This document shows, in pieces, positions 3 through 23,959 of a stretch of 31,952 bases of DNA. The notes under the pieces are model-generated. The model saw nothing but the letters and a program-made list of their open reading frames with translations, was not told where the DNA came from and did no database searches. How positions within the stretch are numbered: position 1 is the stretch's first letter; every line of letters begins with the position of its first letter. This DNA is from a virus. The DNA is taken from the IMG/VR virus record IMGVR_UViG_3300037296_000283, positions 1-31,952 of that record, one strand, 5' to 3'. The position numbers and the translations under genes were made by a program.

Positions 3-404
3 GGGCGCATTACAGGACGACCGCTCAAGCGGCCAATACTCCCAGAAATGGCAACATTGATTAAGCAAGTTATTCTGACATCGCCAAGTGACTATGTTTA
101 TGCGTTTTCACACCCCAAAGAAGACCGGCCGACAAATGACCGAGCGCATTTATCGCTGCCCACAAACATAGATCATTGGATTAAAAAGCGCTTGTCGATA
201 GATATTCAGTCTTGGTCCATCCATGATTTAAGAAGCACTGCACGGTCGCGTTGGTCAGCGTTTGCGCCACCGCATATTTGCGAGATCGCTCTTGGTCATG
301 CGTTGCCAGCGATGTGGCAGACGTATGACCATCACGATTATCTTGAAGAGCAAAGGGCGCTTTACGAGCAATGGATTATGAAGCTTCACGAGATTATTTC
401 TTAG
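3..404 (+). CDS. Tyrosine recombinase/integrase, C-terminal part (5' end outside window)
   Basis: The frame is open from the first bases, so the gene starts left of the window. The visible 133 residues contain the catalytic end of a tyrosine recombinase: box II HDLRSTARS (H-x-x-R), an LGH motif, and a candidate nucleophile Tyr in MWQTYDHHDY followed by the E-Q-R-x-L-x-x-W helix usual at the C-terminus of P4-like integrases. It would cut and rejoin DNA at att sites. It runs convergently into the excisionase-type gene, overlapping it by 11 bp, so the two may form an int/xis pair. An internal ATG at 48 is not a credible start because the motif-rich frame continues upstream. A second, complete integrase lies at 14955-16121. 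Confidence 0.85.
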   Translation, partial: GRITGRPLKRPILPEMATLIKQVILTSPSDYVYAFSHPKEDRPTNDRAHLSLPTNIDHWIKKRLSIDIQSWSIHDLRSTARSRWSAFAPPHICEIALGHALPAMWQTYDHHDYLEEQRALYEQWIMKLHEIIS

Positions 405-5556: not shown

Positions 5557-5877
5557 TTAATTCGCTTTTAAAGCGGTTTGGTAATTTTCGTGGCGCACGA
5601 CTTGTAAGTAGTGCGGGAATTTATCGATCGTGATCGCTGTGCGGTGTGGCTTGCTGTCTGCATTAACAGAAAACACCACTTCACCGACTGCGAATTGGTC
5701 GCCATCGCTGCGCGTGTGGTCTTTCCTGCTCACTACGCCAGCAACAATGGTGGCGATTTTTAAGCGGGTTTGATGACCTTTGCGGCTGACAAATTCGATG
5801 ATCGATAGCGGTACGGCCTGATCATTTAAAATCATGATTTTCTGGCCTTTCTTACGAGTCATCGTGAAGCCGCTCAT
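5557..5877 (-). CDS. Divergent CsrA-like RNA-binding protein
   Basis: Residues 5-45 keep a CsrA-like core: T-M-T-R-K-K-G-Q-K-I-M-I-L (compare the usual L-T-R-R-x-G-E), an inserted loop, then IIEFVSRKGHQTRLKIAT in place of the V-K-G-N-Q-V-R-I strand pair. The protein is longer than CsrA (106 versus about 61 residues), and the classical R-E-E-I strand 5 is not obvious; an extra beta-rich C-terminus follows. Its start overlaps the stop of the canonical CsrA gene (TAATG). It may form a heterodimer with, or antagonise, the neighbouring CsrA; that is inference. Confidence 0.65.
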   Translation of the reverse strand: MSGFTMTRKKGQKIMILNDQAVPLSIIEFVSRKGHQTRLKIATIVAGVVSRKDHTRSDGDQFAVGEVVFSVNADSKPHRTAITIDKFPHYLQVVRHENYQTALKAN

Positions 5878-6086
5878 TACTGCACGCCTTGTTCTAGTGC
5901 GGCCTTGCGGTCACGCTCTATCACTTCATCACGCATGATTTTTACGTCACTCGATGCTGTGAACTTTAGGTGCGTTTGCTGGCCTTTTACTGCCGCGCTT
6001 TTGATGTTAAACGTGGTTTCGTTTTCACTCGCTGGCACAGTGACGGTGATGCTTTCGCCTACGCGGCGAGTTAGTGTTAAAGACAT
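5877..6086 (-). CDS. csrA: CsrA/RsmA-family translational regulator
   Basis: A 69-residue CsrA homologue. It starts SLTLTRRVGESITVTV, with the conserved L-T-R-R-x-G-E. It then has an inserted acidic loop, VKGQQTHLKF in place of V-K-G-N-Q-V-R-I, and IMRDEVIER matching the functionally key R44-E-E-I region (Glu45 replaced by Asp). CsrA dimers bind A-N-GGA motifs near ribosome binding sites and change translation or stability of mRNAs. A copy in an early operon could retune host or phage translation. Unusual: a second CsrA-like gene follows directly with a one-base stop/start overlap. Confidence 0.88.
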   Translation of the reverse strand: MSLTLTRRVGESITVTVPASENETTFNIKSAAVKGQQTHLKFTASSDVKIMRDEVIERDRKAALEQGVQ

Positions 6087-8180: not shown

Positions 8181-8933
8181 TTAGTGCTTCCAGAGGCCAT
8201 CTTGCATTTTTAGCTGCATGGTGAGTTGTTCAAATACGGCTTGAAACTGTGCGGCGTCGGTTTCTGGGTCGAAGCCATCTTTTGTTGCGATTCGAGCGTT
8301 GTAAAGCTGCGATACGGCTGTTAGGTATGGCACAAGCAATTCACTGTCTACATTGAAGCCGGCCTGTTTTACTGCACCAATCAATTGACTACTTGTTTTA
8401 GCGATCAGATCGGTATTAATCTGTTGGCCTTTGGGTGGTGTCATTGGCTTGCGGTCTAACCACTCTTCTGGAAGTCCAAGACGCTGTTCGACTACACGAC
8501 AAATTCGTCCGATCAATTTCCCTTTTCCTGCCAATATCTTGCTTATCCAGCCTTTTGTATAGCCACACATCTCAGCGATTTGAGTTTGTGTCATACCTTT
8601 TTCGGCTTCAAGGTGTGCAACATATTTAGCTAGGTTTTGGCGTCTCCATTGATAAATCCATGCGTTTTGGAATTCTTCATCCGACATATCGGCAATTTTT
8701 AATGCATCAGCCAGCGGTATATCCATCAATCTGCAAATCAACATAGCCTCTTCTAGTGCAAAACTCACAGCACCACGCATACGGCGATCTATTGCTGCAA
8801 CCGATAAGCCTAAATACTCTGCTACATCACTCTTCTCATAGCGGGAGGCATTGATAATTCGCTGCATAGCAAGTGAACAAGCCGCTTTAGAGCTCTCGAC
8901 TACTTCTTTTTCTAGCGCTTTTTGTGCTGCCAT
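8181..8933 (-). CDS. Prophage repressor-type protein with two HTH domains
   Basis: A 250-residue protein with a first HTH near residues 28-60 (EKSDVAEYLGLSVAAIDRRM) and a second, Xre/Cro-like HTH near 110-150 (MTQTQIAEMCGYTKGWISKI, then L-A-G-K-G). The C-terminal 90 residues are helical and lack an S24 protease motif, so RecA-driven self-cleavage is not expected. It is leftward and faces the rightward operon across a 243-bp region holding an inverted repeat, the position of a CI-type repressor. It could instead be a Cox/Apl-like or activator protein. Downstream genes in the same direction are the SWIM protein and an unknown. Confidence 0.7.
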   Translation of the reverse strand: MAAQKALEKEVVESSKAACSLAMQRIINASRYEKSDVAEYLGLSVAAIDRRMRGAVSFALEEAMLICRLMDIPLADALKIADMSDEEFQNAWIYQWRRQNLAKYVAHLEAEKGMTQTQIAEMCGYTKGWISKILAGKGKLIGRICRVVEQRLGLPEEWLDRKPMTPPKGQQINTDLIAKTSSQLIGAVKQAGFNVDSELLVPYLTAVSQLYNARIATKDGFDPETDAAQFQAVFEQLTMQLKMQDGLWKH

Positions 8934-9041: not shown

Positions 9042-9070
9042 TTGAATATAAAATACACTAGGTGTTATAT
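9042..9070 (+). promoter_or_regulatory. Candidate sigma70 promoter for rightward operon
   Basis: TTGAAT (9042-9047), a 17-bp spacer, and TTATAT (9065-9070) form a reasonable -35/-10 pair pointing right. It sits just downstream of the inverted repeat and about 107 bp before the first rightward gene. Not tested against other candidates numerically. Confidence 0.5.
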
Positions 9071-9084
9071 TCAGTATCAATGTG

Positions 9085-9176: not shown

Positions 9177-9494
9177 ATGTCTAGCAAGATTAATACATTG
9201 GATCACGCTGTCATGGGGCTTTTATTAAAGTCTGATCGGTCGCTTTCTATACCGACCATGAGGAAGCGTTCTAAATCGTCCGCGAAACGGGTGTTGAAGT
9301 CAGTTGAAAAACTGATGGCGCTGGGTTTTGTGACGTGTCGTGTTGGTTCTGATGATTTGCCTCTTCATTCTGCTGTTCTCGATTGCCTCTATTTCCCGCC
9401 CGTCACTTGTGTGGCGTCGCGGGTTTTTTCTTTTGAGGATACAGAGCTAAAAACGCTTGTTGCGGAATGCGATAAGCAATTGTTAACCCAATAA
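9177..9494 (+). CDS. Small winged-helix-like protein
   Basis: A 105-residue first gene of the rightward operon, with a clear ribosome binding site (GGAGGGG) before ATG. Residues 8-60 look like a winged helix: MGLLLKSDRSLSIPTMRKRS, followed by V-L-K-S-V-E-K-L-M-A-L-G-F-V. The position matches Cro-like or early regulatory proteins. The C-terminal half is not recognisable. The interval from 9495 to 9836 that follows holds the C4-type RNA region. Confidence 0.65.
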   Translation: MSSKINTLDHAVMGLLLKSDRSLSIPTMRKRSKSSAKRVLKSVEKLMALGFVTCRVGSDDLPLHSAVLDCLYFPPVTCVASRVFSFEDTELKTLVAECDKQLLTQ

Positions 9495-9587
9495 TAAGAG
9501 CTGAAACACGACGTTTTTCGGGGACACGATGTCCGCAGTTCTGCACCTTTATTTGACAGGTACAGAGCAATGATTAATAATTTAACC

Positions 9588-9607
9588 GTTACTGCAAAAT
9601 CAGTAAC
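9588..9607 (+). other. Perfect hairpin in C4 target leader
   Basis: GTTACTG (9588-9594) and CAGTAAC (9601-9607) form a 7-bp stem with a six-base loop just upstream of the second antisense target segment (9613-9636). It probably belongs to the attenuator fold of the leader. Confidence 0.5.
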
Positions 9608-9643
9608 CTGGATTACCACCCAGCAAAATTACAAGGGCAGACG

Positions 9644-9668
9644 AACCGCCCATAAAAGCGGTTTTTTT
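9644..9668 (+). terminator. Intrinsic terminator/attenuator in leader
   Basis: AACCGC (9644-9649) pairs with GCGGTT (9658-9663), and a run of seven T (9662-9668) follows. It lies between the target segments and the C4 RNA, where P4-type systems stop leader transcription in the immune state. An alternative pairing of GGGC (9635-9638) with the same CCGCCC bases could act as anti-terminator. Confidence 0.7.
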
Positions 9669-9675
9669 ATGTCTG

Positions 9676-9763
9676 CGCGCCTGTACCTACCTGTTATGGT
9701 CGGATTGGCGGGGCCGTCTTCGGGCGGACCAGTTTACCTTGTAGCTGGTTGTGGTAACCCTGT
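9676..9763 (+). ncRNA. C4-type antisense immunity RNA
   Basis: The RNA segment contains two hairpins: a stem with a C(UUCG)G tetraloop at 9711-9730 and TTACC/GGTAA at 9734-9757. Two stretches are complementary to the leader just upstream, the hallmark of C4 RNAs of phages P1/P7 and the CI RNA of P4. CTGTACCT plus CTGT (9681-9694) pairs with GACAGGTACAG (9555-9565). CCTTGTA-GCTGG-tt-GTGGTAA (9737-9757) pairs with TTACCAC-CCAGC-(5 nt)-TACAAGG (9613-9636). In known systems the RNA is cut from its own leader transcript and blocks leader translation, so transcription ends before the replication genes. Exact ends are estimated. Confidence 0.82.
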
Positions 9764-9769
9764 TAGTCC

Positions 9770-9810
9770 GGCCACCATATTCTCGAAATTACCACTTCGA
9801 CTTGGTGGCC
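9770..9810 (+). other. Hairpin before the winged-helix gene start
   Basis: GGCCACCA (9770-9777) and TGGTGGCC (9803-9810) are exact 8-base inverted copies with a 25-base loop. They end 13 bases before the AAGGGG ribosome binding site of the gene at 9837. This may close the C4 domain or modulate access to that start. Confidence 0.5.
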
Positions 9811-9836
9811 CCAAAAAATATACAAGGGGTTCCATC

Positions 9837-10127
9837 ATGGCACAGTTACGTCAAAAATCTGATCAATTGTCTGTATACGGTAAACGTGTACGCAACGCTA
9901 TCCAGTTCAACCTTCCTAAATTTGGCGACTCGCCACGCATCCTGTTAGACCCTAACGAGATTTCTACCTTATCCAAGATTTCTGTTGATAACGTCATTCG
10001 TGGTGTCCGAGAGCTAGAACGCGAGGGTTATATCGCTCGCATGTTCAAAGGCCGTCGCAGTAAAGCGCATGTGTTTGCATTGTTGAATCCTGAATTAAAA
10101 GGGTCTGTTGTGGAGGTGTGGGCATGA
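9837..10127 (+). CDS. Winged-helix replication/regulatory protein (96 aa)
   Basis: Start chosen at ATG 9837 because AAGGGG lies 7-8 bases upstream; the same frame is open back to 9570. Residues 30-85 form a winged helix: ILLDPNEISTLSKISVDNVI, R-G-V-R-E-L-E-R-E-G-Y-I-A-R, with a basic wing KGRRSKAH. The arrangement resembles the DNA-binding domain of replication initiators and marR-like regulators of phages. It is the first gene after the C4 RNA and so is likely its controlled target. The next gene starts at an ATGA overlap. Confidence 0.7.
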   Translation: MAQLRQKSDQLSVYGKRVRNAIQFNLPKFGDSPRILLDPNEISTLSKISVDNVIRGVRELEREGYIARMFKGRRSKAHVFALLNPELKGSVVEVWA

Positions 10128-10749: not shown

Positions 10750-10889
10750 GTGTTCAACTTCTTATCGCTGCGGTAGTAATTTTTACTACCTTCTGGGGCT
10801 TCTATCCGTTTAAAAAAACGGCTGAACGAGTCCTTTTGGCTGTTCTTATTGTCTTCCATTTGATTTGCATTTTGGGAGACTGGTCATGA
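10746..10889 (+). CDS. Small membrane protein (47 aa)
   Basis: ATG 10746 overlaps the previous stop (ATGA), and the frame ends at TGA 10887-10889, overlapping the next ATG at 10886. Two hydrophobic helices (LLIAAVVIFTTFWGFYPF and VLLAVLIVFHLICIL) are joined by a short basic turn KKTAER, so it should sit in the inner membrane as a hairpin. Both overlaps argue strongly that it is translated. Role unknown; small two-TM proteins in phage early operons include exclusion and host-takeover factors. Confidence 0.7.
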   Translation: MSVQLLIAAVVIFTTFWGFYPFKKTAERVLLAVLIVFHLICILGDWS

Positions 10890-11914
10890 GTATCACTCAA
10901 ACTGTGGCGGCCATCGGTCGCCTTGGTTTCACTGGTAATGTGACGCCTAAAATCTGGTACAAGCAAATCTCTTTGCCTTCTGGTCGTCCTGATCACAAAG
11001 CTATTACGTTGCTTTCTGAAATTCTCTATTGGTATCGCCCAACTGAAATTCGTGATGAACACACGGGGCAAGTTGTTGGGCATCGAAAGAAGTTTTCAGA
11101 CGATAAATTGCAGCGCTCTTATCAGTCGTTTTCTGATGATTTCGGCATGACTAAGCGTGAAGTTCAGGACTCTCTAAAGCGCCTTCGTGATGCGGGTTTG
11201 ATTACGCTAGAGTTGCGCTCTAAAACGGTAGGCGGTAACTACATCGCAAATCTTCTTTATATTGAGCCTGTTGCCTTTGAAATTGATCGAATTACTTTCC
11301 CCATTGCCGAATTGGAGTCTGCCTCAGAAAGCGAACAACCTACGCCAAACCGTAGGACTACCTCCGAAAATTCGGAGGTAGTCCTACGTGAAAATGTAGA
11401 TGCACCTACGTTGAAACGGGGGACGTATACAGAGATTACTACAAAGACTTCTACAGAGACTAAGAGCTTAGATCTCTTGTCCGATTCTGCCGAATCGAAC
11501 GTACCAGCCGTGGTGGATGATTCCGTTCCATTCGATGCGAAAGCCAAACGCGAGTTATTGGCCGAGGCGTTTGAGCGTGTTTGGGTTGGTTACGGTCGAC
11601 GAGGTAGCAAGAAACCTGCCGAGGATAAATTCCTCAAACTCAAATTGCCAGCCAACCGATCCGAGGCGATTGGATTGCTGCAAAACATTATCGACAAAGC
11701 GAAGCAATGGGGTGAGCTATACGCTCAACACCCGAGCGAGGTGCAATTTCAACCGCACACTGTTCGATGGGTCAAAGAAGAAAAATGGAACGACGAGGAG
11801 CTTCCGACAATCCGACAGCCGCACAGCGGTGGCTCTGCGTTGCCAGTGATCGGCAGTGATCGACAAGACGTTAACGACGCACTTACGAATATTCACGATA
11901 CGGATTGGATGTGA
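10886..11914 (+). CDS. Replisome-organizer / phage replication protein O-like
   Basis: A 342-residue protein; start ATG 10886 has GGGAG about 8 bases upstream and overlaps the small membrane protein stop. Residues 30-125 form an N-terminal winged helix (HKAITLLSEILYWYRPTEI, then FGMTKREVQDSLKRLRDAGL), the pattern of phage replication initiators that bind iterons. A variable Ser/Thr/Glu linker (about 140-215) separates it from a C-terminal helical domain (AFERVWVGYGRRGSKKPAED, then H-T-V-R-W-V-K-E-E-K-W) seen in many replisome organizers. It should recruit the host helicase. No helicase loader or helicase gene is recognised next to it. Confidence 0.75.
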   Translation: MSITQTVAAIGRLGFTGNVTPKIWYKQISLPSGRPDHKAITLLSEILYWYRPTEIRDEHTGQVVGHRKKFSDDKLQRSYQSFSDDFGMTKREVQDSLKRLRDAGLITLELRSKTVGGNYIANLLYIEPVAFEIDRITFPIAELESASESEQPTPNRRTTSENSEVVLRENVDAPTLKRGTYTEITTKTSTETKSLDLLSDSAESNVPAVVDDSVPFDAKAKRELLAEAFERVWVGYGRRGSKKPAEDKFLKLKLPANRSEAIGLLQNIIDKAKQWGELYAQHPSEVQFQPHTVRWVKEEKWNDEELPTIRQPHSGGSALPVIGSDRQDVNDALTNIHDTDWM

Positions 11915-11921
11915 GGTTGCC

Positions 11922-12281
11922 ATGATTGATTCTAATAATGATTTGTTTAACGAATTTCCGAAAGAAAATGACGCCTACACCGAGGCTGCGAACAATGCCC
12001 ATGACGTGGGTAGCTGGAAACCGAGCCACGCGGTGGTGATGGAAACAGCGCGACGTGTTGGGTTTCAAGCATTGCGTCGCCGTGATACGGGTGCGGGCAA
12101 GCGTGGGTTTGGCAAGCATTACCGCGATGTTTGCAAAGCGTATTTGCGCGGTGAACGGTTTAAGCCGGTTGTGATTGATAAGCCAAAATTAGAGCGATTG
12201 AGCGAGCGTGAATTGCATCAGCGCAAAATGGTTGGTCGTAGCCGTGTTGGTGATTTGAAAGCGCTGTTGGGGGGTGGGTGA
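11922..12281 (+). CDS. Basic hypothetical protein after replication gene
   Basis: 119 residues. ATG 11922 is chosen because GAGG lies 5-6 bases upstream; a longer in-frame extension back to 11856 overlaps the replication gene and is unlikely. The middle is basic (RRRDTGAGKRGFGKHYRDVC), suggesting nucleic-acid binding. It occupies the place of a helicase loader but has no Walker motif, so it is not DnaC-like. Its last 55 bp are duplicated at 12606-12660. TGATG overlap with the next gene. Confidence 0.65.
   Translation: MIDSNNDLFNEFPKENDAYTEAANNAHDVGSWKPSHAVVMETARRVGFQALRRRDTGAGKRGFGKHYRDVCKAYLRGERFKPVVIDKPKLERLSERELHQRKMVGRSRVGDLKALLGGG
12225..12280 (+). repeat. Direct repeat copy 1 (gene end)
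   Basis: This is the 3' end of the 119-residue gene, starting AAAATGGTTGGTCGTAGCCG. A copy with about seven differences lies at 12606-12659. In copy 1 it encodes the C-terminus K-M-V-G-R-S-R-V-G-D-L-K-A-L-L. Confidence 0.8.
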
Positions 12282-14454: not shown

Positions 14455-14958
14455 ATGCGTTGGAAAGATTCTACTAAAGTCGGTTCTTTGGGTTGGTTGT
14501 CGTGGACGGTTGTTAATAAGCACATTGATACGTTAATCAGTACGTCTGCGGATGCAGGTTGGCGCGGTGTAAGTAACGCGGGGAAGATCTGCGATATGTT
14601 GGAATCGGGTATCGTTCCTGAGTTTGGTGGCGGTGGTGACTCTAACGCAAAGATGATTAAAGCCATTGAGCAGCTGACGACGAAAGAGAGTGGCTTCGCG
14701 CATTTGTTTGATTCGTTAACGCCTATGCAGCGTTTGTGCTTGTTTGCGTCGGTGCTGGCGGAAGGGCGACGAGATGAGCGCGGTATGGCGCCGCTGAATG
14801 CTTCAGTTGCGGCGTTGATTGGTCGTTATGCGGCCGAGTTGAGGATGAAAGCACCTCTTAAGCGCCTGTCTGCTGTAAATTACTCTGTGCATTCGTCGCG
14901 TGGTCGTGATGCGTTTATTAAAGCGTTGCTTGCGAAGATCGCAGCGGTGTCTGAATGA
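14455..14958 (+). CDS. Helical hypothetical protein before integrase
   Basis: A 167-residue, mainly helical protein with a GAGGAG ribosome binding site. Residues 100-165 (MQRLCLFASVLAEGRRDERG, then IKALLAKIAAVSE) suggest a helical bundle, possibly with an antitermination or sigma-like fold, as in Q-type or DUF1133-like lambdoid late regulators. That assignment is speculative. Its stop overlaps the integrase start (ATGA), so integrase synthesis is coupled to it. The 92-base gap upstream (14363-14454) holds an imperfect hairpin (GGCGCTC/GAGTGCC) without a U-run. Confidence 0.6.
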   Translation: MRWKDSTKVGSLGWLSWTVVNKHIDTLISTSADAGWRGVSNAGKICDMLESGIVPEFGGGGDSNAKMIKAIEQLTTKESGFAHLFDSLTPMQRLCLFASVLAEGRRDERGMAPLNASVAALIGRYAAELRMKAPLKRLSAVNYSVHSSRGRDAFIKALLAKIAAVSE

Positions 14959-16121
14959 AGCGCATTACGGATACCTCTATAAAATCGTTTTTGGCAAACA
15001 GTGATAAAATGTGGTGCTTTGACTCGCGCCGCGTGGAATTCCGAGCCAATCCATCGCGCACGGGTGGCACGTTTTACGATGTGGTTTATCAGGGTAAATT
15101 GAAGAAGCGCACGGTGCTGGGCAAGTGGCCGGCACTGAAAGCGTCTGATTTGTTCAAGCGGTTATCTGAAATTCGCACTCAACTAATGGCGGGTGAGCGA
15201 ACAGGCAGTAAGGTCAATTCGGTAACTGATTGCGGCACATTATTATTATGGTTTGTGGATCACATTGAGCAAGATAAGACATTCAGTGAGGGTTACATCG
15301 AGACAGCTTCACATCGGATACACAATCATTTATTGGGGTGTTTTGAAGGGCTGCCTGTACGTGGATTGACTCGCAATGCAGTGTATAAACGATTGTATAA
15401 AGTAAAAATGGATGTGTTGGCATTGTCGACTATTCGCACGACTTGGGGCGTATTAAAGCGCGCTTGTTCGTTGGCAGCTAAGCTGGAAGTGATCGCTTCC
15501 GATCCGTTGGCTGGCGTTGGTTGGCGTGATTTTTCTACAGCCAAACAGGTGCATTTATCAGGTCGCTTGAAGGTGCCGGATTTACCAATTGTTGCAGAAG
15601 AAATTAATAAGGCTCAATCATTGAGGCGTTTGTTTTTTACGCTGCAGCTTTGTCATGGTACGCGGATCAATGAAACGTGTTTGGCAAAATGGTCTCATTT
15701 TTATTTAGATCATGCTGAGTGGGTTATTCCTGCCGAAAATACGAAAACAGGTGTTGAGCTTCGTACTCCTTTGGCACCTGGTGTTGTTGATCTTTTACGC
15801 GCCGCCAAATCTAAGCGTAAAGGCGACTTTGTTTTCACTCGCTGCGGTAAACAATCGATAAGCAGAGCGACCGCAAGTGGTTGGTATAAGGACTTAAGAA
15901 GCGGTACTGATCTTTATTTCACTTCGCACGATGTCCGTAAATTGGCGCGAGACTATTGGCAAGTGACTGGCGTTGATAGTGATGTTGCTGAGATGCTGCT
16001 GAATCATTCCCGCGGTGACTTGAAAGGGCGCTATACGAGTCAGTATGCTTGGCCGTTAATGGTGGAGGCTGTGGGGAGGTTGGCAGGGGAGGTGGTTTTT
16101 GTCCTATATAAAAAATCGTAA
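14955..16121 (+). CDS. int: P4-like tyrosine integrase (complete)
   Basis: 388 residues. The N-terminus is an arm-binding DUF4102-like domain (FDSRRVEFRANPSRTGGTFY, then L-G-K-W-P-A-L). A SAM-like core-binding domain follows at about 90-190, then the catalytic domain with R237 (HGTRINE), K264 (ENTKTG), H325-x-x-R328 (SHDVRK), H351 (LLNHS) and nucleophile Y360 (GRYTS). Length and motifs fit P4-type integrases. Start overlaps the preceding stop, so it is the last gene of the rightward operon rather than separately expressed. It may be the true integrase of element 1, with the attachment site just beyond its end; the partial integrase at the left edge would then belong to a neighbouring element. 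Confidence 0.93.
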   Translation: MKRITDTSIKSFLANSDKMWCFDSRRVEFRANPSRTGGTFYDVVYQGKLKKRTVLGKWPALKASDLFKRLSEIRTQLMAGERTGSKVNSVTDCGTLLLWFVDHIEQDKTFSEGYIETASHRIHNHLLGCFEGLPVRGLTRNAVYKRLYKVKMDVLALSTIRTTWGVLKRACSLAAKLEVIASDPLAGVGWRDFSTAKQVHLSGRLKVPDLPIVAEEINKAQSLRRLFFTLQLCHGTRINETCLAKWSHFYLDHAEWVIPAENTKTGVELRTPLAPGVVDLLRAAKSKRKGDFVFTRCGKQSISRATASGWYKDLRSGTDLYFTSHDVRKLARDYWQVTGVDSDVAEMLLNHSRGDLKGRYTSQYAWPLMVEAVGRLAGEVVFVLYKKS

Positions 16122-16148: not shown

Positions 16149-17387
16149 TCAGCTCAATCCAGTTATAATAAGGTGGTAACTTACTGGCTCGCTTCCGGCT
16201 AAATAGCACAGCCATCCAGTTAGCAAAACAAGTGATACGGCTATTGCTATAGAGCAGTATAATTTGAATTTCACTCGAAATGCAGCCGTATCAATATTGT
16301 CTTTTTTATCGATTATACTATTTTCTTCTTCTTCAAATTTTCTGGAGAGAGCATCGAATATATCTGAATATTCTTCTATCGTATTTTTTATAATTGAAAA
16401 CTGTCCACATATATTCATGATTAACAATGCAGCTAATAGTATTACTGTTATTAGAATTACTAGGTTTTTATGAAAATCTACCTGAGATGTGATATTACTA
16501 TTGATTTGAGAAGTTGCAAACCAAAGTCCGGCTGGCAATGATAAAAGTTTTAAGGCTATCCCGTCAAAAACATTATGTATTTTAGAAATGTATTCGGTTT
16601 GTTTTTCAAGGTACTCTTTTCTGATTTTATCGAATGAATAATTTTCTACATACCCTTTATAATCAAGTAGAACATCAGCTACAAGCATCCCAGAGTTTTG
16701 TACAAGATGAGCAAATCTTCGATCAATGCTCACATCTTTAAGCCTCTTAACTATTTGAGTGCAGATCAAATGATTCATTGCTTCTTTATGAACATCTTTA
16801 TCTAGTAGTCTTTTTATGGCATCTATGTCTATGTGGTAATCTAGATCTTCTGACTCTAAGGTGAACTTAAATGATAACGGTCTTTCAAAGTAGATTGTGT
16901 CAGTAGTTCCTTCATTTCTATCAATTAATTCTTCAACAAGTTCATAAAGTTTATGTACATTTTGGTAGTTTTTGTATTTTTTTTCTTCACTTTTTGCTGT
17001 TAGGTGTACTCCAGTAGATGTGAAAAAAATATCTACTAGAGGTCTTTTTATATGACGGCTATCTTTGAGTAGATCATTCCAATCTTCAAATATAGGGCAG
17101 TCAATTCTGTTTGATTTTTTGGATAAGGATATTTTGAAAAGTAAATCATCTCTATAGTGTTTTTCACTTATAGTTTCTAGACTGAGAGGATCATCTTGTA
17201 AACAGCCTTTTAATGAATAAAAATATACACCATTAGTCAATTCAATATTTTCAAGATACTTTAGAGTTTTAACTATGTTTTCATTAAGTTGAACCCAGCC
17301 AAAAAACTCATCATTAATGAGCTCTCTTTCATTAATGATAAAGTATATATTTTTATATTTTTCTACTGTTTCATTTTGATTATTCAT
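16149..17387 (-). CDS. 412-aa membrane protein, partner of the NdpA-like gene
   Basis: Residues 1-270 are soluble, charged and Asp/Glu/Lys rich with no recognised domain. Hydrophobic helices follow at about 308-328 and 376-398, with a weaker one at 274-292; between the two strong ones lies a charged coiled-coil-like loop (340-370). The large domain should be cytoplasmic and membrane-tethered. Its ATG (17387) overlaps the stop of the NdpA-like gene by 8 bp, so the two were translated together. Composition is much more AT-rich than on either side, a sign of transfer. It lies convergent to the integrase with a 27-bp gap, a typical cargo position. Family unknown to me; a role in phage defence is only a guess. 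Confidence 0.75.
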   Translation of the reverse strand: MNNQNETVEKYKNIYFIINERELINDEFFGWVQLNENIVKTLKYLENIELTNGVYFYSLKGCLQDDPLSLETISEKHYRDDLLFKISLSKKSNRIDCPIFEDWNDLLKDSRHIKRPLVDIFFTSTGVHLTAKSEEKKYKNYQNVHKLYELVEELIDRNEGTTDTIYFERPLSFKFTLESEDLDYHIDIDAIKRLLDKDVHKEAMNHLICTQIVKRLKDVSIDRRFAHLVQNSGMLVADVLLDYKGYVENYSFDKIRKEYLEKQTEYISKIHNVFDGIALKLLSLPAGLWFATSQINSNITSQVDFHKNLVILITVILLAALLIMNICGQFSIIKNTIEEYSDIFDALSRKFEEEENSIIDKKDNIDTAAFRVKFKLYCSIAIAVSLVLLTGWLCYLAGSEPVSYHLIITGLS

Positions 17388-18167: not shown

Positions 18168-18839
18168 TTAATCAATCTGCTTAGCTCTTTGCAATACTCT
18201 TATCATTTTACCGAGCACTGCAAAGCGACCGTTAAATTCTTCGCCAACGAAAAATGGCTTGTATGCTCTGTTATCGCTAGATACATGATAGCCATTTGTT
18301 GCATAGTCGTATTGCAGCCTTTTGACTAAAATTTCATCATCAATTCTTATAACACATATCCCATCTCTAGCATGCTTAGGATCAGTTACTAGCTCTACAA
18401 GCATTAGATCTTCATCTATCAGTGTTGCTTCCATTGAGTCACCAGAAACAGGCACAACGGCCAGCTGCTTGCCTCTTAGTCCCTGTTTATTAAGCCAATC
18501 TTCTGAGAACTCGAATTTAGCCACAGGGTTCTCGGACACAACTAAACAACCAGAACCTGCGCTGGCTTTGAGGTCATATTGATATGCTTCAATAAATTTG
18601 TTCTGTATTGGTTTTTCATTAGTCTCAGATTTTGATGAACTACTATAGGTCTGAGTATTTTCAGAAACTAAATCATAACTAGGAACTAAATATTCCACGC
18701 CTGAACCCTGAACACCTTCTTGCCGCCTGCTTTCCCATCCCTCTCTCTTTGCTTTTTTGTGTACACCTGGGCCGCTAGACGGCATTCCTTTGATTTGAGC
18801 TATGTCTTTTACAGACATCCATTGGTTTTTCAAAACCAC
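18168..18839 (-). CDS. Mu-type repressor with S24 (LexA-like) peptidase domain
   Basis: Up to 223 residues. The N-terminal 50 residues form a Mu c/MuA-type DNA-binding domain (GMPSSGPGVHKKAKREGWES, then E-G-V-Q-G), parallel to the transposase N-terminus. The C-terminal half is an S24 peptidase: catalytic S135 in GDSMEATL and K173 in ILVKRLQ, with a possible Ala-Gly cleavage site at 94-95 (ASAGSG). So the repressor may be self-cleaved with RecA, making the prophage SOS-inducible. Start is uncertain: GTG 18839 has AAAGGGG touching it, TTG 18833 is better spaced, and ATG 18818 lacks an SD. Confidence 0.9.
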   Translation of the reverse strand: MVLKNQWMSVKDIAQIKGMPSSGPGVHKKAKREGWESRRQEGVQGSGVEYLVPSYDLVSENTQTYSSSSKSETNEKPIQNKFIEAYQYDLKASAGSGCLVVSENPVAKFEFSEDWLNKQGLRGKQLAVVPVSGDSMEATLIDEDLMLVELVTDPKHARDGICVIRIDDEILVKRLQYDYATNGYHVSSDNRAYKPFFVGEEFNGRFAVLGKMIRVLQRAKQID

Positions 18840-19060: not shown

Positions 19061-19288
19061 ATGGGTGAAACAGATTGGCACCGCGCTGACATCATTTCAG
19101 CTTTAAAAAAACGTCGAACTTCAATGGCTGCTTTATCTAGAAATCACAACCTAAGCAGCGGTTCTTTGTATAACGCGCTAGTAAGGCCGTGGCCGAAAGG
19201 TGAGCGGATTATCGCGGAAGCCCTAGAAGTTGAGCCATCAGCAATTTGGCCAACTCGATACGAAGAACAGTTTCTGAAAACCGCGTGA
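19061..19288 (+). CDS. ner: Ner-like early regulator
   Basis: 75 residues from ATG 19061, the same length as Mu Ner. ATG 19052 is also in frame but abuts the AGGAG, whereas 19061 has 9 bases of spacing. The sequence MGETDWHRADIISALKKRRT, then A-A-L-S-R-N-H-N-L-S-S-G-S-L-Y-N-A-L, ending WPKGERIIAEALEVEPSAIW, is the signature of the Ner/Nlp family. Ner turns down early transcription and repressor synthesis during lytic growth. It is first in the rightward early operon, 14 bp before the transposase. Confidence 0.93.
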   Translation: MGETDWHRADIISALKKRRTSMAALSRNHNLSSGSLYNALVRPWPKGERIIAEALEVEPSAIWPTRYEEQFLKTA

Positions 19289-23612: not shown

Positions 23613-23891
23613 ATGTGTAATTGCATTCAAGAAACAAAAGAAAAAGTAGTTGAGCACATGAAGACTCGCCTGCCTGATGGTGTCATTGATGGCACGTTCG
23701 AGGCGTCAATTGCGGGCCAAGTATTTAGGTTTGATGGTAGCAACAACACCATTCCCGCGATGACGATTAACGCTGAATTCAGACAGACAAAAGTGAACGG
23801 CGAACCGATGAAATCAGCTAAGAAAATATCCATGCCAGTGTTCGGAACTCACTGCCCATTTTGTGGAGAGGCTCATAAAAAACCTGAATAG
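23613..23891 (+). CDS. Small Cys-pair early protein
   Basis: 92 residues with a C-x-C at the N-terminus (MCNCIQ) and a C-terminal zinc-knuckle-like HCPFCGEAH. The two Cys pairs may together bind one zinc. The central part is beta-rich (GQVFRFDGSNNTIPAMTINA). GGAGAG precedes the ATG. A pair of strong hairpins follows the stop directly. Function unknown; one of three Cys-pair proteins in this early operon. Confidence 0.65.
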   Translation: MCNCIQETKEKVVEHMKTRLPDGVIDGTFEASIAGQVFRFDGSNNTIPAMTINAEFRQTKVNGEPMKSAKKISMPVFGTHCPFCGEAHKKPE

Positions 23892-23895
23892 CGAA

Positions 23896-23934
23896 ACGCG
23901 GTTCGCCGCGTCTGCCTAGCGTAGTGGCTAGGCA
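23896..23934 (+). other. Two adjacent perfect RNA hairpins inside the early operon
   Basis: ACGCGG(TTCG)CCGCGT at 23896-23911 is a 6-bp stem with a stable UUCG loop. Two bases later TGCCTAGC (23913-23920) and GCTAGGCA (23927-23934) form an exact 8-bp stem with a six-base loop. No U-run follows, so this is not a simple terminator. The spacing between genes (68 bp) is larger than elsewhere in this operon. Confidence 0.7.
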
Positions 23935-23959
23935 CTGATGAGCAGCTAAGGAGATCACT

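Follow-up and report, generated by a model that had tools for sequence, protein, structure and literature searches.

A probable P4-type C4 RNA immunity module beside a repressor-like gene in the early region of a tailed Marinomonas prophage

The window, that is, the whole stretch of 31,952 nucleotides analyzed here (IMG/VR record IMGVR_UViG_3300037296_000283), combines sequences of two kinds. The first 16 kb are for the most part colinear with the early region found in 49-kb prophages, and from ~18 kb onwards it corresponds to a Mu-like phage, with the tailed-phage early region meeting the Mu-like phage between 16121 and 18168 (S24 repressor at 18168, MuA at 19246). The record gives the appearance of two prophages lying side by side rather than of a single virus. 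The one colinear 49-kb prophage that was checked encodes terminase, portal and tape measure proteins, and the element therefore differs from P4-like satellites, which are small genomes with no structural genes of their own. Homologs of the replication gene described below point to a host in Marinomonas, in agreement with the non-enteric setting proposed beforehand from the bare sequence.

Other features of the window lie outside the RNA locus. One prophage carries two tyrosine recombinases, an integrase fragment at the left end (48-404, plus strand) and a gene at the end of the early genes (14955-16121, plus strand) with homologs in all seven relatives compared. Between the two phages, 16149-17387 (minus strand) gives a sub-threshold match to the NCBIfam anti-phage model DS1_2 (30.8 bits, cut-off 315), and the Mu-like part contains a Type II hammerhead ribozyme (23889-23951, plus strand; 66.3 bits, gathering score 37). 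A CsrA-family protein (32.6 bits, cut-off 27) and an adjoining small, similar-looking ORF with no Pfam match, at 5877-6086 and 5557-5877 on the minus strand, are both kept in related 49-kb prophages.

The early region includes a minus-strand gene (8181-8933) for a protein with two HTH-like regions, a probable lysogeny repressor (HTH_3, 40 bits; HTH_26, 32 bits; several PHROG repressor families), homologs of which, 38-92% identical, are present in all seven relatives compared. A protein repressor acting besides the RNA had been claimed, and with this repressor-like gene adjoining the locus two control layers appear likely. A consensus scan identified a weak candidate early promoter on the plus strand (TTGAAT-18-TATATT with TG, 9042-9071), of a kind found at about chance frequency, which is overlapped by a 9-bp inverted repeat (9043-9051/9065-9073); in three relatives the extended -10 is similar and the inverted repeat is not. 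By analogy, this candidate is a possible equivalent of the upstream promoter PLL of P4. Between it and the leader RNA lies a small gene of 105 aa (9177-9494, plus strand), homologs of which are found at the corresponding position in the 49-kb prophages as well as in relatives L006 and L009, and whose product matched no family above cut-off. The operon presumed to be under control of the locus continues downstream with a replication initiation (O-like) protein (10889-11914, plus strand; phrog_270, E 3e-26) and a possible P-like helicase loader (11856-12281, plus strand; weak match to phrog_109, E 0.003).

An isrK/seqA-type leader RNA with terminator (9588-9668, plus strand) was recognized by Rfam model RF01394 at 60.4 bits (gathering score 50), and its fold comprises two hairpins followed by the terminator (MFE -20 kcal/mol, z = -3.1). 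The predicted leader promoter, TTGACA-N17-AATAAT (9553-9581, plus strand), agrees with the consensus at 11 of 12 positions and places the predicted start at ~9588. It is kept in nine clade members (as TTTACA in L012), and TTGA-type promoters similarly precede the leaders of the seven other Marinomonas C4 loci checked; comparison with P4 suggests that it may be the equivalent of the constitutive promoter PLE. The intrinsic terminator of the leader (9643-9668, plus strand) consists of a 7-bp stem (9643-9664) and a T run, as had been noticed in the form of a U-tract terminator between target and antisense segments.

Beyond the leader, the C4-type antisense RNA suggested by the sequence-only reading was borne out by the Rfam C4 model RF01695, which matched in full (model positions 1-87) at 9692-9779 on the plus strand with 69.6 bits, above the gathering score of 45 bits; the limits first given for this RNA, 9676-9763, have to be moved accordingly. 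Its minimum fold (-43.9 kcal/mol, z = -4.5) takes the expected three-stem form and includes the UUCG hairpin already pointed out. Complementarity and covariation identify two antisense segments on the plus strand, a' (CCTTGTA, 9737-9743) in the loop region of the third hairpin and b' (GTGGTAA, 9751-9757) in the unpaired junction. A feature of the C4 family is RNase P processing to an RNA of ~77 nt, and by analogy with published C4-like RNAs (PMC5320573) the cut would be expected at the GGU beginning at 9698, where a GGU is indeed present. The c4-a1b1 model (RF03163) scored below gathering, with 27.4 bits at 9575-9627 vs 46.7 needed, and a distant DNA search of phage and plasmid records with the region returned no homologous C4 locus. 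C4 matches turned up in 24 of 50 Marinomonas genomes, and the C4 RNA of locus L019 is nearly identical to the one described here. The occurrence of C4 outside the enteric bacteria is not new: C4 RNAs across Proteobacteria have been listed (PMC2864571), and non-enteric groups carrying C4 have been named (PMC5320573).

Both antisense segments have targets on either side of the C4 RNA, all on the plus strand. Upstream, b1 (TTACCAC, 9613-9619), complementary to b', is presented by the loop of the leader's second hairpin, and a1 (TACAAGG, 9630-9636), complementary to a', is single stranded between this hairpin and the terminator. Downstream, a second, seqC-like b2 (TTACCAC, 9789-9795), again complementary to b', is followed by a2 (TACAAGG, 9821-9827), which overlaps the Shine-Dalgarno sequence AAGGGG (9824-9829) of an ATG at 9837; this second pair was absent from the earlier reading. 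Within the window, the composite pattern TTACCAC-N(4-34)-TACAAGG occurs only in the leader, in the C4 RNA (on the opposite strand) and at the ribosome site, and it was not recovered in any of 100 shuffles. Among relatives, the match to a2 is poor in L004v and L013.

Pairing of 9737-9757 with 9613-9636 had been described as three blocks of 7, 5 and 7 bp. All three can be drawn and the outer two stand, but the middle block draws on the 3' strand of one of the C4 stems, and no such block appeared in the few relatives that were looked at. A further proposed RNA pairing, between CTGTACCT (9681-9688) and 9558-9565, is probably wrong. The two octamers are complementary, but CTGTACCT falls outside the C4 model and its partner lies upstream of the predicted start at 9588; since 9558-9565 sits within the promoter match and the leader hairpin begins at 9588, this octamer is probably untranscribed from the leader promoter. 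Most of the clade has nevertheless kept the inverted octamers, which may form a putative protein site.

A long open reading frame of 185 aa, here called eta-like (9570-10127, plus strand), starts at an ATG in the spacer of the leader promoter and runs through leader, terminator and C4 RNA into the downstream gene; its Shine-Dalgarno sequence is weak (AGAG). It is open in eight of nine clade members, in which the other frames contain 2-10 stops, and in these eight the distance from ATG 9570 to the inner ATG is 267-276 nt, always a multiple of 3 despite indels; in the ninth, L013, the frame is shifted. Substitutions at codon positions 1, 2 and 3 number 442, 446 and 364, a distribution with no coding signature, and because there is no third-position excess it is the frame, not the peptide, that looks conserved. 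In simulations in which substitutions fell at random, about 17-27% of the trials for each divergent relative preserved the open frame, and conservation of the open frame across these nine related sequences is suggestive, not conclusive. At other Marinomonas C4 loci the frame is usually closed.

The terminal part of the long frame constitutes a kil-like gene (9837-10127, plus strand) for a predicted 96-aa winged-helix protein, present in all C4-bearing clade members aligned. Its structural model has a pLDDT of 71 and its PDB matches are weak and of winged-helix type (best E 2e-3), so that the fold is assigned to the winged-helix class weakly and no further. The protein has no PHROG match, no AntA or KilA-N match and, in Pfam, only a sub-cut-off match to HTH_36; it shares no recognized family with P4 Kil. 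The N-terminal part of the eta-like frame gives a sub-threshold match to Phage_ASH (21.3 bits, cut-off 26), a family that P4 Eta matches at 82 bits. The P4 sequence itself contains nested frames of 199/198/197 aa and 65 aa across its C4 match, and these frames of 197-199 and 65 codons correspond in size to Eta and Kil (Forti et al. 1999, cited in PMC10111431). The stretch of the frame matched by Phage_ASH (PF10554) and PHROG 6928 is the one lying over the leader and the C4 RNA, so that matches to these two families may flag hidden C4 loci. The annotation 'Ash protein', and some annotations as 'transcriptional repressor', may mark a frame that runs across a C4 RNA.

The assignment of targets was examined by comparing the a' and b' segments of each locus with its own flanks and with the flanks of other loci. 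Among 54 mainly Marinomonas loci, at least 7 Watson-Crick pairs were formed with the locus's own downstream a site in 41 cases and with its own downstream b site in 50, against 7.7% (a) and 10.6% (b) when segments were swapped between the 54 loci at the same threshold. Among 80 loci from 11 further genomes, at least 6 pairs were formed at the four sites in 71, 77, 77 and 76 loci, against 28, 27, 34 and 21% with swapped segments. The loci are related, and these counts are thus not independent, but the variable C4 segments fit their own flanking sites far better than those of other loci. The same two-site layout was read by eye in P4 and P1. Specificities are many, with 117 distinct combinations among 131 loci.

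C4 RNAs were found in at least 62 of 392 genomes of the order, with ten candidates per genome scored, and three genomes of the same order (G297, G335 and G363) hold 24, 22 and 15 C4 RNAs each; nearly all C4 loci read in these three have matched flanking targets. No identical co-resident C4 RNAs were observed among 324 within-genome pairs; since 0.64 identical pairs were expected by chance, we make no claim of orthogonality for co-resident C4 RNAs. At three loci (L058, L053 and L065) a' and b' no longer fit their own flanks, and the downstream sites of L058 are of another specificity, as if recombined. At four Marinomonas loci (L044, L045, L046 and L020) the C4 RNA lies directly 5' of an AntA or KilA-N gene.

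The close relative L006 has kept the repressor, the 105-aa gene and the replication gene, and its leader, C4 RNA and kil-like gene are all missing: its sequence diverges just inside the leader promoter, and Rfam detected no C4 or leader in it, checked down to E 10. Because this relative has none of the leader, the C4 RNA and the 9837 gene, the RNA layer seems to be a dispensable cassette.

The layout of the locus is that of the P4 immunity module (CI RNA, seqA, seqC, eta/kil). Common to both are a C4-family RNA with a leader target and terminator upstream, a second target at the ribosome site of an inner gene, nested long and short frames, and replication functions downstream. As in the P4 control, targets flank the C4/CI RNA on both sides, corresponding to seqA before it and to seqC after it, and the nested eta/kil arrangement running through C4 recurs here as 9570-10127 containing 9837-10127. 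Of the P1, P7 and P4 layout recognized by the sequence-only reading, the P4 type (leader target, terminator, C4, second target, nested frames) is thus the part that stands, and the antirepressor operon of P1 is the part that does not. Unlike P4, the element is a tailed phage: it has structural genes of its own as well as a repressor-like HTH protein, its long frame begins inside the leader promoter spacer, and its inner gene encodes an apparently unrelated 96-aa winged-helix protein. According to the P4 model, an internal constitutive transcript is terminated by CI/seqA, and translation of Eta from an upstream promoter prevents this termination (PMC10111431).

The C4 RNAs of P1 and P7 belong to the same Rfam family and likewise have two pairs of flanking targets for a' and b', but P1 C4 represses an antirepressor operon, whereas the first gene here has no antirepressor family match. 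Gifsy-1 of Salmonella (IsrK/STnc1160; RF01394) shares an isrK-type leader with terminator just 5' of a processed RNA. There, STnc1160 lies just downstream of IsrK, and the authors compare the processed RNA with P4 CI and discuss the relation between isrK, seqA and CI (PMC4825925). Gifsy-1 has antQ upstream and anrP downstream, in contrast to the 105-aa gene upstream and the winged-helix gene and replication operon downstream in our element. The Group 1 C4-like sRNAs of Acinetobacter baumannii are built on the same C4 scaffold, their a' loop likewise varies, and a genome carries several of them (PMC5320573). Host mRNAs have been proposed as their likely targets (PMC5320573), whereas in all lineages that we tested (the mainly Marinomonas loci and those of the 11 further genomes) the variable segments fit the element's own flanks.

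What the DNA shows directly is the presence of the C4 and leader families, the two pairs of targets and the way these covary with C4, the open frame and the order of the genes. We consider it probable (roughly 80%) that the locus, lying among the early genes of a tailed temperate prophage, is a P4-type RNA immunity module that controls the replication operon beside a repressor-like protein. How the promoters are used, how the RNA is processed and terminated, the translational override and the immunity itself would follow P4 by analogy. In the lysogen, the leader promoter (9553-9581) would always be on, producing a transcript from ~9588 that does not contain the start codon of the long frame and from which the C4 RNA would be cut out, presumably by RNase P. 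Pairing of a' and b' with a1 and b1 in the leader would favor early termination, and pairing with a2 and b2 at the kil-like ribosome-binding site would block translation from 9837. Because C4 would act at both sites as proposed, by termination and by translation block, the replication operon behind the module would be silent, and so would that of a superinfecting phage whose a/b sequences are the same. Upon loss of the protein repressor, transcription would start further upstream and include ATG 9570, and ribosomes translating the eta-like frame would cross leader, terminator and C4, disrupting their structures and allowing the replication genes to be expressed.

Control of the P1/P7 type only would have C4 block the first downstream gene as an antirepressor, with the operon silenced through polarity and the long frame accidental. 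The overlap of a2 with the Shine-Dalgarno sequence of ATG 9837, the presence of the same target-site pair in P1, and the AntA or KilA-N genes preceded by C4 loci in other Marinomonas elements are all compatible with such control; against it, the gene at 9837 matches neither family, a replication gene follows, and the frame left open in eight of nine clade members is usually closed at the other Marinomonas C4 loci. We regard this reading as unlikely. Less probable by a clear step is activation of the IsrK type, by which the short leader RNA would turn on downstream translation in trans and the module would be an induction trigger rather than an immunity function. The isrK model does match at 60.4 bits, and IsrK of Gifsy-1 activates orf45-anrP translation (PMC4825925), but repression is what the covariation between C4 and its two targets directly fits, and IsrK is described in that study as a structural homolog of P4 seqA (PMC4825925); activation by IsrK and repression by C4 can, moreover, coexist.

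That the locus is a decayed, inactive relic, in which a truncated early region has become joined to a Mu-like phage, has very little to recommend it: the left-end integrase is truncated by the end of the record and the window contains no late genes, but the locus has kept intact its promoter, its terminator, the C4 fold, the long frame and each of the four target segments, whereas decayed copies elsewhere (such as L053, L058 and L065) have broken pairings.

The P4-type immunity module that we favor represents a switch that is ordinary in kind, belonging to the known C4/CI type. What the locus adds is the full set of parts in a tailed prophage that also has a repressor-like protein, together with a covariation test that can be transferred to other elements. 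A broader proposition, to which we give even odds, is that selection holds the frame of this clade open for the act of translation, not for the peptide, with ribosomes on the lytic transcript erasing RNA-based repression, and that C4 loci generally constitute diverse, self-matched specificities, up to 24 per genome, whose segments address their own element only. The comparison of ~130 relatives shows unusually clearly how the C4 switch reaches its specificity, and four-way covariation across these loci provides a simple sequence test of C4 RNA targets, applicable to the C4-like sRNAs of A. baumannii. The P4-type immunity module would thereby be extended to tailed prophages of a marine genus, in which a repressor-like protein and an RNA layer lie side by side in one early region.
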